The notes under the pieces: model-generated
Databases searched by the model: none
What the model was told of the DNA's origin: nothing
The model's input: only the letters and a program-made list of their open reading frames with translations
Program-made: the position numbers and the translations under genes
In this document: positions 32,000 to 37,037 of the stretch, one piece after another
Position numbering within the stretch: the stretch's first letter is position 1
How the letters are laid out: each line of letters starts with the position of its first letter
Assembly (NCBI RefSeq): GCF_022770205.1
Contig: NZ_JALEIK010000038.1
Location: 1-64,000 of the forward strand
Direction of reading: 5' to 3'
DNA: 64,000 nt
From: Helicobacter sp.
GTDB lineage: Bacteria; Campylobacterota; Campylobacteria; Campylobacterales; Helicobacteraceae

Positions 32000-32818
32000 T
32001 TAATGACACACTTCTATGCGTCCATTGTTGCGGCGGATTTTACCTTCCAATTCATATTCAAATAACACTTCGCCAAAGCGCAAAAAGGCTTCTTCAAAAA
32101 AGGGATTGCTTTGACAAAAATCTAAAATTTCATCGCTTAAATTCCTTGAACTAGGCGTAATATTGGAATCCAAAATGCTAGCACAAATCTCACTTACAAA
32201 TTCATCTATATCCCAAATCACTTTTGCTTGATTGTTTTTAGCCAAGCTCTGCGTGCCAAGACTCTGCCCTAAATGGTGGGGTGGCACAAAGATGTTTTTT
32301 CTAAGGCTTAAAGCATATATTGCGCTCTGCATTGAGCCGCTGTATAAATCTGCCTGTGGAATCACAACGCATTCTCCTAGGCTTATTACAATTTTATTGC
32401 GTTCTAAAAAAGAATAGCGATGTGGCGTGTAAGTGGGGGCAAATTGGCTAAGAATCAAGCCTTGCTTATAGATTTTAGAAATCATTGGCGCATTGCTTCT
32501 AGGGTAAATATAATCTAGGGAGCTAGGGGAAATCATAATCGTGTTTGGCAGGGAATTTGCGTGGGCTATGATGTCAATGCCTAAGGCACCGCCGCTTACA
32601 ATTACGATTCCATTTTTGCTGAGTTTTTGTGCGATTGTTTGGGTAAAATTTTGCGCATAAGGGTTTGGATTGCGTGTACCAATAATAGTAACTTTTGGTG
32701 CTTTTAAAAGTTCTAAATTGCCACAATAATAAAGAGTTTTTAGCTCTTTTATGTGTGCTAGTGTTTGGGGGATTTTTGCAAGTTTTTTAGGTTTGGTGTT
32801 GGAATCTTCTAAAATCAT
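32000..32818 (-). CDS. dprA: DNA processing protein DprA
   Basis: A 272-residue Rossmann-fold protein that binds incoming single-stranded DNA and loads RecA during natural transformation. Family motifs are visible: VTIIGTRNPNPYA near residue 43, the phosphate-binding VSGGALGIDIIAHA near 74, and SFLERNKIVISLGECVVIPQA near 135, followed by SGSMQSAIYAL near 158. There is no N-terminal SAM domain, as in H. pylori DprA (HP0333), and a short C-terminal winged-helix-like tail. Its start overlaps the upstream WD40-protein gene by four bases. Confidence 0.93.
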   Translation of the reverse strand: MILEDSNTKPKKLAKIPQTLAHIKELKTLYYCGNLELLKAPKVTIIGTRNPNPYAQNFTQTIAQKLSKNGIVIVSGGALGIDIIAHANSLPNTIMISPSSLDYIYPRSNAPMISKIYKQGLILSQFAPTYTPHRYSFLERNKIVISLGECVVIPQADLYSGSMQSAIYALSLRKNIFVPPHHLGQSLGTQSLAKNNQAKVIWDIDEFVSEICASILDSNITPSSRNLSDEILDFCQSNPFFEEAFLRFGEVLFEYELEGKIRRNNGRIEVCH

Positions 32819-34944
32819 TTTTCTTGTCTAACAATGTAGATGACTACGGAATCTACAAAGCCGCAACGGCGATAACCATCACTTTCTCCCTCGCCTTCAA
32901 ATTGATCTAAAATGGCTTTTGCTTCGTGATTTTGGAGAAGTTTTACAAGCTCAAAGCTTTTGCCATAGCGTTCAAAATAGCGTTTTAATGTAATAGACCA
33001 ATTGATTTCAATATTATGTAAAGCTTTCTCAATTTGTTTTAAATAGGCAATCTTTAAAAGTGAGCCGATTTTATCTATCCAATAATCAATCTCTAAATAT
33101 TCGCCAAATAGCACCATTGCGTGCTTTGCATTGCCATTATACGCATAAGGCTTTGCTTCCTCATAATGGTGTAAAAAATCTTTAGTAAATTCTTTAAATT
33201 GTTCCATTGTGCGCAAGCTTTCAATCTCATCAATTAAAGCATACACCTTTTTAATATCCTTTGCCTCAATGGCATTTAGCAGCTTTTCTTTTTGTTGCAT
33301 TAAAACAATGCGCTCATTTGCAGTGCGTTTTAGGGTTGGGAAAACAAGCAGTGTTTGGGCGATTTTCTTTGCTTCTTCATAGTGGAAGTTTTTTTCTAAT
33401 TCAATTAAGTTTGCTAGCATCCGTTCACCTACAAGTAAGACTTTTTTGTATAAATCTGTTTCGCGTAAAAAAGAGAATTGAAAAGTTAAGCTAAAATATT
33501 CTTTGAAATTTTGCTTTTTTATCAATGCTTCTGCCTTTTCAAACACATCACAATTCCGCAATAGTTGGACAATAAGCTCTTTTTTTGGCGTTTTATTAAA
33601 GGGGGCTAGAGTTTGTTCAGCTAGGCGTTTGTTAGCATCTGCATTTTCAATCAAAAGTTTTTTAGCGTCAAAAAATGCCTTATTCCAAATATTTTCTAGC
33701 TTCTCATATGCTTGAGTCTTGACAAGGAATTTCGTTGTTTTAAGCATTTCGTAGGCTTTTGTGTAGTCTTTTTTAGCGATGAATTCTAAGAATGTTTTGA
33801 CACCATCTTTTTGCGCAAGATAAAAGCTAAATTCATTTTTCTTAGAAGGGCTAACCACAAAGGGTTCAGTCAGCTCTATGGCTTCTTCAATAGAATCTTG
33901 GTTGAGTAAATCAATGGCTTGGCGGAGAATTTGTGGCCAGACTTCGTCAAAGATTTTGGTTAAGGGATGAATGCTTAAAAAGACATTGTTATTGATTGCT
34001 TCTCTTGCGCTTTTATAATCCTTTCTATCAAGGCTTGCTTGTAAATCGTCTTTGCCCTCATTATAGTTAATAATTAGCAGTGAGCCATCAACAGAGCCAA
34101 TATATAAATAATCGTGCGAAAAAGTTAGGGATGCAGTTCCTGCGTGATCGTTTTTAATCTCCATAGCTTTTGTATTGTCTTTTAATGCAATAACATAGAG
34201 CGTATTAGAGCGCGTTCCAACGAGAGCGTAATTTTCTTCAGAATCTATTGCAATGCTTGTGGGCCAAAAAGCAAAAGGGTATTCTTGGGAAATGATTTTA
34301 CCATCTTTTAGGCTAAAAATAATGGAGGCATTGTTGCGGCAGACAAGAAGAATCTTCTCGTCATTGTCAAAAAATGCACAATCTTCTACAACATCATTTG
34401 TTGCAAAGTTAAATGCGATGTTATGCCGGAGCATATCAAAAATGAGTGTAAATTTATCAAATCCGCTAATGGCGACAAACTCACCGCTTTTAGAAAAGCG
34501 GATTGTGGAGATATAATCAGAGCGTGCAAGTAGTGAAGTGATAGGCAAAAAACTCTGCCCATCGTAGAAAAACACACGCCCATCTTGCCCGCCTGTTGCA
34601 AAAAATCGCCCATCATTTGAAAAAGCAGAAGATTCTACATCGCCATCGTGGTCCTCTAAAGTCGCAATAGGCTGCGGCTTTGCATTATCAAGTTTTATGA
34701 TAAATGCCTTTTTTTCTCCAAAAATGGGAATACAAAAGTATGCTAGTGGAGAGACTCCAAAGGCGTGGGAGTAGCGGTGTGGGGATTCTACATTTTTAGT
34801 TACTTGAATGTTTTTGGAAATCTTTAGGGAGGAGTCAATTTCTACAATATGAAAAGTATTATCCACGCATAATGTGGAATCTTTAGATTGCATAATGTTT
34901 AAAATGCTACCTTGTAATTGTTGCATAGATTCTGGAGTTGTCAT
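32815..34944 (-). CDS. WD40 propeller plus helical-repeat protein
   Basis: About 709 residues and two regions. Residues about 10-300 contain WD40-like units; the clearest are EDHDGDVESSAFSNDGR near 94, SDYISTIRFSKSGEF near 136, and SLTFSHDYLYIGSVDGSL near 268. Counting fainter ones gives seven, enough for one beta-propeller. Residues about 305-690 are helical pairs with repeated DY..A/NF..Y patterns (for example FIAKKDYTKAYEML), resembling an alpha-solenoid. There is no signal peptide or membrane span, so a cytoplasmic scaffold is plausible. Of three close starts the third (34944) has AAGGA eight bases upstream. It overlaps dprA by four bases. Function is unknown; the architecture call rests on reading the pattern. 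Confidence 0.75.
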   Translation of the reverse strand: MTTPESMQQLQGSILNIMQSKDSTLCVDNTFHIVEIDSSLKISKNIQVTKNVESPHRYSHAFGVSPLAYFCIPIFGEKKAFIIKLDNAKPQPIATLEDHDGDVESSAFSNDGRFFATGGQDGRVFFYDGQSFLPITSLLARSDYISTIRFSKSGEFVAISGFDKFTLIFDMLRHNIAFNFATNDVVEDCAFFDNDEKILLVCRNNASIIFSLKDGKIISQEYPFAFWPTSIAIDSEENYALVGTRSNTLYVIALKDNTKAMEIKNDHAGTASLTFSHDYLYIGSVDGSLLIINYNEGKDDLQASLDRKDYKSAREAINNNVFLSIHPLTKIFDEVWPQILRQAIDLLNQDSIEEAIELTEPFVVSPSKKNEFSFYLAQKDGVKTFLEFIAKKDYTKAYEMLKTTKFLVKTQAYEKLENIWNKAFFDAKKLLIENADANKRLAEQTLAPFNKTPKKELIVQLLRNCDVFEKAEALIKKQNFKEYFSLTFQFSFLRETDLYKKVLLVGERMLANLIELEKNFHYEEAKKIAQTLLVFPTLKRTANERIVLMQQKEKLLNAIEAKDIKKVYALIDEIESLRTMEQFKEFTKDFLHHYEEAKPYAYNGNAKHAMVLFGEYLEIDYWIDKIGSLLKIAYLKQIEKALHNIEINWSITLKRYFERYGKSFELVKLLQNHEAKAILDQFEGEGESDGYRRCGFVDSVVIYIVRQEK

Positions 34945-35017
34945 GCGCATTTTCCTTGCCACAATTTTTAAAAAGCTTAAGGGGGCTATTTTAGCATATT
35001 TTCTTTAAATAAGGCAT

Positions 35018-36004
35018 TTATGGTGTGATGATTTCGTTAATATAAACAAGCTCTACGCCACTATTTTCCAAGTAATTTGTTGCATTTTTAAGTGCTAGAA
35101 GTGTTGCTTTATGGGGATGCCCAATAGCAATTGCATAGCCTTTTTGTTTAGCAATTTGCACTGCTTGAATGAGTTGCTCAGTAATTGTTGGAATCTCTAG
35201 AATGTTATCTAAGAAAACATCACGCTTTAAGGGAGTTTGTTGGCAGGGGTTAAATGCGACATAAGGGGATTTTGCATACACAGCGTTGGTTTTTGTAGTG
35301 CCGATGGTTTTGGAATCTACGAAGTTAATGCGGTGGGTTTTTAATGTTTCTAAAAGTAGCGACATTGATTCTAAATCTTGAGTGAATTTACTGCCTGTGT
35401 GGTTGTTGATGTAGCTTAAGTTTGGAAAATCTTGCTTGATTGTTTGAATATGGGATTCTATTTTTTCTTTAGAATCGCCCACAAATAGCCATTGATGTTC
35501 TTTTTGATAGAAGTTTAGTGCTTCAAGGGGTAAGTGAATCATATAAAAAGGAGCGATTTTAGCAATTTTTGGTGTATCTGGGTTTGCTTTACTTTTGGGA
35601 AATAAAGAGGGGGTGAATTTGAAGGGAATCTGTGTGATGGCTTGGTATTGCGCAAAAGTGCCTATATCATCAATGATGATTGCAAGTTGGGGTTTGTTAC
35701 GCATACAAAAGTTGGAATCTAATTTTGGATTCTGTGTTTGGGAAGCTTGTATTTGGGGTGGTTGTGCTAGTGTTTTGCTTTGTGCTTCAACTTTAATTTG
35801 CTCTAAATGTTGTTGTAAAAAATCAATGTTTTTTTGGAGAAGTTCTGTGTTGTTTGTTGCAAGCGTTGTATGGTGTTTAGGAGTTTGTTGCTGGGAATAG
35901 TCTGTGGTTTCTTGCGGTTTTGGTTTTTTAAGGGTAAAGCTAAAGGCTAAAAGAATTAGTAATAAGGCGATGATTCCTATTGTAACGGGTTTAATTCTCT
36001 CCAT
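35018..36004 (-). CDS. Divergent polysaccharide deacetylase (YibQ-like)
   Basis: A 328-residue protein with an N-terminal membrane anchor (ITIGIIALLLILLAF-type segment at about 6-24) and a glutamine/threonine-rich linker to about 95. A divergent polysaccharide deacetylase domain follows, beginning QLAIIIDDIGTFAQY near 105. HLPLEALNF near 155, NNHTGSKFT near 199 and AIGHPHKATL near 296 are the other conserved pieces. The metal aspartates and histidines are present, but substrate is unknown; a periplasmic envelope role is inferred. C. jejuni has a similar gene beside dprA. It follows minE with a five-base gap on the same strand. Confidence 0.82.
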   Translation of the reverse strand: MERIKPVTIGIIALLLILLAFSFTLKKPKPQETTDYSQQQTPKHHTTLATNNTELLQKNIDFLQQHLEQIKVEAQSKTLAQPPQIQASQTQNPKLDSNFCMRNKPQLAIIIDDIGTFAQYQAITQIPFKFTPSLFPKSKANPDTPKIAKIAPFYMIHLPLEALNFYQKEHQWLFVGDSKEKIESHIQTIKQDFPNLSYINNHTGSKFTQDLESMSLLLETLKTHRINFVDSKTIGTTKTNAVYAKSPYVAFNPCQQTPLKRDVFLDNILEIPTITEQLIQAVQIAKQKGYAIAIGHPHKATLLALKNATNYLENSGVELVYINEIITP

Positions 36005-36009
36005 TAATT

Positions 36010-36240
36010 CTATTTTTCTAAAAAAATCTCAACTTCAAGGGTGTTGAAATTTTGGTTAGAATCGGTTTTAATATCAATCTTTTGGGCATTTGTGTATTTT
36101 TTAATCACTGCTAAGATTTCTTGTTTCATAGCGTCTATATAAGGCACATTGATTGCACGCTCGTGTGCTAAAATCAGTGTTAAGCGATCTTTTGCTGCTT
36201 GTGCAGAGCTTTTTTTACCTTTGAAAAGATTGAAATTCAT
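36010..36240 (-). CDS. minE: Cell division topological specificity factor MinE
   Basis: A 76-residue MinE. The N-terminus ([18 protein letters not shown]) provides the membrane-targeting and MinD-binding helix/strand, and the C-terminal half ([18 protein letters not shown] and the IDIKTDSNQ.. strand) forms the dimer domain. It stimulates MinD ATPase and drives pole-to-pole oscillation so that the septum forms at midcell. It starts inside the end of minD (four-base overlap), as expected for coupled translation. No minC lies next to the pair, which is usual in Helicobacter. Confidence 0.95.
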
Positions 36241-37037
36241 TGGAATAACCTTCCAAAAAAGCCTTTTTTTGCTTTTAATTCCAAAAAAGGCACATCTTCG
36301 CCTAAAATGCGTTTTGCAATGTTTTGGTATGCTTTAGCGGCAAGGGAGTCGGCATAAATTACAGGTTCTCCCGTGTTTGTAGAGGAGATGATTTTTTCAT
36401 CTTCTGGCACAATCCCAATTAAGGGCAATGCTAAGATATTAAGCACATCTTCTATACTTAGCATTTCACCCTTTTCTACCATTTCAGGCTTTAGGCGGTT
36501 AATGATAATGTGTTTTTGCACTTCTTGCCCATTTTTTGCCTTTTGACTTTTTGCGTCAATGATTCCAATGACTCTATCTGCATCGCGCACGCTTGAAACT
36601 TCAGGAGTAGAAATGATAAGCGCCCTATCGGCTAAGAAAATAGAATGTTCAAATCCGCCTTCAATCCCTGCTGGAGAGTCTAAAAGCACGATGTCAAATT
36701 CTTCTTTGAGTTTATGAATGAATGTTCCAACTTTATCTTTATCTAGGATATTTTTATCCTTGCTTTGACTTGCGGGCAAGAAGTAGAGATTTTTTGCTTT
36801 TTTATCGTTAATGAGAGCTTGGGAGAGATTGCATTCTCCTTCCATAACATTGACAATATCATACACAATGCGATTTTCTAAACCTAAAATCATATCTAAA
36901 TTGCGCAATCCAATATCAAAATCTACTGCCACAACTTTTTTGCCAAGCTGTGCTAAACCCACTGCTAAATTTGCGGTAGTCGTTGATTTTCCAACGCCAC
37001 CTTTGCCTGAAGTAATTGTTATCACACATCCGCTCAA
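36237..37037 (-). CDS. minD: Septum site-determining ATPase MinD
   Basis: A 266-residue ParA/MinD-family ATPase. It has the deviant Walker [12 protein letters not shown] at residue 9, the switch region [10 protein letters not shown] near 40, [10 protein letters not shown] near 118, and a C-terminal amphipathic helix ([10 protein letters not shown] onwards) that targets the membrane. Length matches. The start is TTG at 37037; upstream lies a -10 box at 37069-37074. It is paired with minE and downstream of rnhB and lon on the same strand. With MinE it positions the division site. Confidence 0.96.

Follow-up and report, generated by a model that had tools for sequence, protein, structure and literature searches.

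A WD40 propeller-solenoid protein family of Campylobacterota, often encoded beside sensors lacking a recognizable output, and its dprA-linked member in Helicobacter

In the protocoatomer proteins (clathrin, COPI/COPII, scaffold nucleoporins) and in IFT-A, one chain carries a WD40 propeller at its N-terminus and an alpha-solenoid behind it. A propeller followed by stacked helix pairs has been reported only from eukaryotes and PVC bacteria (Santarella-Mellwig et al. 2010, PMC2799638), and the failure to find it in other bacteria served as an argument for connecting PVC bacteria with eukaryotic endomembranes (PMC2799638). A survey of prokaryotic WD40 proteins makes no mention of Helicobacter or Campylobacter (PMC5587647). 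Within the open-access literature searched, we found no description of the propeller-solenoid family reported here or of its pairing with sensors. The member at the center of this study is a 709-residue protein encoded in the window, the term used here for the whole 64,000-nucleotide stretch of Helicobacter sp. DNA that was analyzed. Compared by layout, it resembles the PVC coat-like proteins (PMC2799638) in being bacterial and in placing a propeller before stacked alpha-helix pairs, but its family is found in Campylobacterota, with shorter proteins that are frequently paired with sensors. In contrast to the protocoatomer proteins and IFT-A, the Helicobacter protein has a single propeller and a helical repeat of its own with an 85-residue unit; it is unrelated to them in sequence, has no significant solenoid match, and comes from a cell with no endomembranes. 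The features of the locus are as follows.

36237..37037, minus strand: minD, upstream of yibQ
35018..36004, minus strand: yibQ (divergent polysaccharide deacetylase), the upstream neighbor of the propeller-solenoid gene
32815..34944, minus strand: propeller-solenoid coding sequence, 709 aa, with its ATG at 34944
34066..34944, minus strand: seven-bladed WD40 beta-propeller, residues 1-293 (5-292 in the AlphaFold2 model), from PF00400, AlphaFold2, and Foldseek matches to Gbeta/WDR5
33784..34035, minus strand: solenoid repeat 1, residues 304-387 (AlphaFold2 model and repeat register, as for all four repeats)
33526..33783, minus strand: solenoid repeat 2, residues 388-473
33274..33525, minus strand: solenoid repeat 3, residues 474-557
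33022..33273, minus strand: solenoid repeat 4, residues 558-641; C-terminal helices and a short tail come after it
32000..32818, minus strand: dprA (DNA_processg_A, 166 bits), its start codon overlapping the propeller-solenoid stop by 4 bp

The order on the minus strand is therefore minD, minE, yibQ, the propeller-solenoid gene, and dprA, the short gene between minD and yibQ being minE by synteny with loci L053, L035, and L058. The initial annotation had placed the gene between dprA and the YibQ/minE/minD genes, and this position held, as did the coordinates, with yibQ and the min genes upstream and dprA downstream. Translation of the plus strand at 32815-34944 gave stops throughout. The minus-strand ORF (34962..32815) opens with a GTG at 34962 that would add 6 residues; the ATG at 34944 is the start common to homologues and gives the length of 709 aa. 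Scanning the cluster for promoters gave 23 sites where 16.9 were expected, no clear excess over chance.

AlphaFold2, supplied with an alignment of 41 sequences, produced a full-length model with a mean pLDDT of 91.9 and a pTM of 0.80, in which 27 strands lie within residues 6-292 and helices run from residue 298 on. The propeller is a member of the WD40 family PF00400 (49.4 bits against a cut-off of 27 in Pfam), joined here to a solenoid that lies outside Pfam. Since Foldseek superposed residues ~1-300 on the seven-bladed WD40 rings of Gbeta, WDR5, and LIS1 (rmsd about 3-4 A, with most TM values, scaled to target length, at 0.7-0.84), the ring is closed and has seven blades; it is an ordinary, generic WD40 propeller. 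When residues 293 onward were predicted alone, the same helices were kept (pLDDT 92.4), and residues 304-641 resolved into four tandem repeats of ~85 residues, each with five helices of about 10, 5, 22, 8-13, and 22 residues. When the profile was compared with itself, the strongest lags were 170, 365, 254, and 84, of which three are multiples of about 85. The four-copy register, picked after these lags were seen, scored 0.23 against -0.34 for the best of 20,000 random registers, and a fairer comparison, using the highest-scoring spacing that is strictly regular, gave -0.36 for the real protein, a value above the -0.51 that 200 column shuffles did not exceed. The predicted structure thus bears out both the seven or so WD40-like blades and the helical solenoid that had been read from the sequence, showing neither an open propeller nor a non-solenoid C-terminus. 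The absence of a signal peptide, also noted initially, agreed with a hydropathy scan of the 709-aa protein, which revealed no signal peptide and no membrane segment (highest 19-residue mean 1.14), and the description of a large cytoplasmic scaffold is supported.

The solenoid yielded no significant structural match in the PDB (none with E below 0.001 by Foldseek), the best being 8bbg_C, an IFT-A chain, at E 0.034 and TM 0.11. It likewise had no PDB relative by sequence and no Pfam family (0 matches in the window protein), and the solenoids of 41 family members gave scattered marginal Pfam matches. Its weak Foldseek matches were mostly to TPR proteins, in which helix pairs also stack into a rod; however, the unit here is a five-helix repeat of 85 residues, against 34 residues in TPR, and Pfam detected no TPR in the window protein and a marginal one in 1 of 41 members (E 0.0076). 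With the full-length model, IFT-A subunits were among the best Foldseek matches, alongside axonemal proteins, at a global TM of 0.30-0.36; these matches stem from the propeller together with loosely similar helical rods. No coatomer, clathrin, or nucleoporin family matched above the Pfam cut-off, the only cross-matches being sub-threshold WD40-superfamily ones to propellers (e.g., Vps41), and no coat family was found in the solenoid. Membership in the coatomer, clathrin, or nucleoporin families was rejected on the basis of sequence and the solenoid structure search. Because the solenoid has no Pfam or PDB relative and the full-length matches are loose, the analogy to coats is one of layout only: the label "coatomer-like" in the initial annotation stands for the order of the domains but not for a coat family, a solenoid match, or a link to membranes.

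Full-length relatives, defined as profile matches above 280 bits, were present in 46 of 150 genomes of the phylum; the raw profile count of 82 of 150 overcounts the family because many genomes match only through short propeller proteins of ~315 aa. A motif scan of one genome per species across 84,980 species placed the family in Campylobacterota only, with H. turcicus, H. rodentium, and H. pullorum as the closest named relatives, although distant relatives could be missed since the scan rests on conserved motifs. Propeller and solenoid align colinearly over their full length among homologues down to about 20% identity. The family is common within Campylobacterota, and the initial statement that the layout is rare in bacteria, which agrees with the 2010 survey (PMC2799638), does not extend to this phylum. 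Searches found no relatives in viral contigs, only distant WD40 propellers in plasmids, and no defence-family match in PADLOC. The window's genome contains three members, of which the other two share 31% and 28% identity with the copy studied here. One paralogue lies between gltX and ispG, and the other (L034:5872-9659, C7) lies 109 nt behind exbB-exbD-tonB, next to a TonB-dependent receptor gene. A dN/dS of 0.07 for the window's copy against two close species shows strong selection.

For family members elsewhere, in several lineages, the propeller-solenoid gene overlaps a receiver and/or PAS sensor gene or follows it closely, at a distance of up to about 25 nt. The inputs of these partners vary among REC-PAS, REC only, PAS only, and a heme-type membrane sensor bearing CxxCH (CxxCH-PAS), one of the latter giving a sub-threshold Pfam match to Tll0287. 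The solved structures nearest to the PAS domain of the partner are 3ewk, the Aer aerotaxis receptor, and a nitrogen-fixation regulator, all of them FAD-binding redox sensors (MmoS, Aer, and NifL). Unlike sensors of the Aer/NifL/MmoS type, the partners have no output domain in Pfam (no kinase, GGDEF, methyl-accepting, or DNA-binding domain) and are paired with a propeller-solenoid gene. Eight of them have in common a C-terminal domain of about 120-140 residues, here termed A5, which gave a weak Pfam PAS match in one sensor and is an undescribed, degenerate PAS-like domain.

Adjacency to a REC or PAS gene is by itself weak evidence, because one genome (G024) alone holds 57 matches to the REC-PAS sensor. 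Such genes account for 15 of the 237 adjacent genes and 19 of the 1065 others, a modest enrichment that comes from loci that are partly related and not independent, so our argument rests on the A5 domain instead. An A5 profile searched against 397 genomes of the phylum, with E 2e-11 or better counted as strong, returned 26 strong matches, 22 of them directly beside a propeller-solenoid gene. With the four seeds excluded, 18 of 22 were directly adjacent; the remaining four comprised one match a single gene away, one at a contig edge, and two, both in one genome, that were unlinked. Many of the 18 pairs come from close relatives (genus g32), and others from genera g28, g51, and g65; a weaker match in genus g71 was also paired. 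Since a genome holds about 2000 genes, adjacency by chance would amount to well under 1% per A5 match, and the A5 pairing, as a pattern of gene order, is the strongest functional evidence found in this analysis.

In a tree of 102 members, built by a fast method and carrying long branches, the part containing the window's copy had sensor-linked members scattered among its deep branches. An A5 sensor stands next to the gene in 22 related members of the tree set and is missing beside the window's copy. A second large clade, linked to ilvA, polA, and recJ, has almost no sensor neighbors; its link to sensors may have been lost or may never have existed. On the same tree, the linkage to dprA is explained by one change of state, suggesting that the window's copy belongs to a branch of single origin. 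The gene lies immediately upstream of dprA in 19/19 genomes of the same genus and in some further genera. Relatives of the same family without the gene at this locus (L250, L251, L253, and L260) have yibQ directly before dprA, as does L256 from outside Helicobacteraceae. An existing yibQ-dprA pair therefore either gained the gene or lost it, which explains the coupling without requiring a function in common with DprA. The apparent coupling to dprA and the min genes remarked on initially is present only in one branch of Helicobacteraceae; elsewhere a recurrent partner is a REC/PAS sensor. A profile search detected no A5 domain in the window's genome, and no REC/PAS gene adjoins the window's gene; we read this copy as a detached, conserved paralogue.

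Given that the sensor inputs are interchangeable while the output-less C-terminus and the neighboring gene stay constant, we read the neighbor as the output of the sensor. We would put at even chances the explanation that the family acts as a signaling scaffold or output of sensors and that the window's copy is a sensor-less paralogue scaffolding other clients. The WD40 propeller would provide a protein-binding ring and the four-repeat, TPR-like solenoid a second protein-binding surface, and the older role of the family, judged from genomic pairing rather than biochemistry, would be that of an output or platform for a co-encoded sensor. The A5 domain may dock on the propeller-solenoid protein, and the docked sensor would then relay its signal to any partner held by the scaffold. 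Some of the Helicobacteraceae would descend from an ancestor in which the window's copy was inserted between yibQ and dprA; kept under strong selection since then, this copy may remain a scaffold with other clients; as A5 is absent from its genome, the signaling role is extrapolated to it. A broader proposal, to which we give slightly less than even odds, is that effector-less sensors in Campylobacterota, whether of receiver, FAD-PAS, or heme type, act through a co-encoded propeller-solenoid scaffold, that the Helicobacter copies have become detached and organize other cytoplasmic complexes, and that the layout occurs outside PVC bacteria with no tie to membranes.

The family could instead be a general protein-interaction hub, with sensor pairing peculiar to certain branches and the dprA-linked copy performing an unrelated cytoplasmic task. 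Outside the paired branches the neighbors are mostly housekeeping genes (gltX, ispG, ilvA, polA, recJ), and the missing A5 domain in the window's genome fits a hub as well; however, the sensor-linked copies occur in several deep lineages in which the inputs differ and the C-terminal domain is the same, and we regard a general hub as rather unlikely. Less probable still is an accessory factor of the neighboring functions, whether DprA in DNA uptake and recombination or Min and the cell envelope. The 4-bp overlap and the constant position upstream of dprA across the genus speak for it, but dprA is present in 54/57 relatives, many of which have no propeller-solenoid gene beside it, yibQ abuts dprA in several relatives without the gene, and paralogues alignable over their full length sit at unrelated loci. 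Nor does charge suggest DNA binding, given an acidic propeller (pI 4.96) and a solenoid that is close to neutral.

The role proposed in PVC bacteria, that of a membrane-coat-like protein binding or shaping inner membranes, seems very improbable here. The domain order is that of eukaryotic coats and PVC proteins (PMC2799638), and IFT-A subunits rank among the best full-length fold matches; against this, those alignments reach only the low global TM given above, coat families show no sequence relation above cut-off, and the solenoid has no significant likeness to any solved structure. The protein is also predicted to be soluble, with no membrane segment, and no recurrent membrane-remodeling genes lie beside the family. 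A signaling scaffold paired with output-less sensors, if true, would represent an undescribed kind of signal output in Campylobacterota and a new route of bacterial signal transduction testable in species that can be cultured and are not pathogenic (Wolinella succinogenes, Sulfurospirillum). In addition, a widespread Campylobacterota family with the same layout and no membrane tie would weaken that layout as a marker.

Individual loci departed from the usual arrangement in several ways. In three genomes, at L211:2754-4909, L218:3010-5159, and L228:3146-5247, a sensor pair occurs in which the propeller-solenoid gene is broken into two ORFs, reflecting either decay or sequencing error. Two tandem A5 sensor genes precede one propeller-solenoid gene at L042:8561-13230 (G039), and at L229:685-6817 three additional REC genes, one upstream of the sensor pair and two downstream of it, suggest a larger phosphorelay cluster. 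A genome with five members (G055) carries two of them in tandem behind gltX, 31 nt apart (L043:8436-12735). Shorter relatives of 560-570 aa lie directly behind a gene of 606-649 aa at L037:6120-9775, L060:7896-11454, and L062:8223-11729, possibly a second kind of pairing; the longer gene overlaps the shorter relative by 4-8 nt in L037 and L060, and in L060 it gives a weak FapA_N match, below cut-off.
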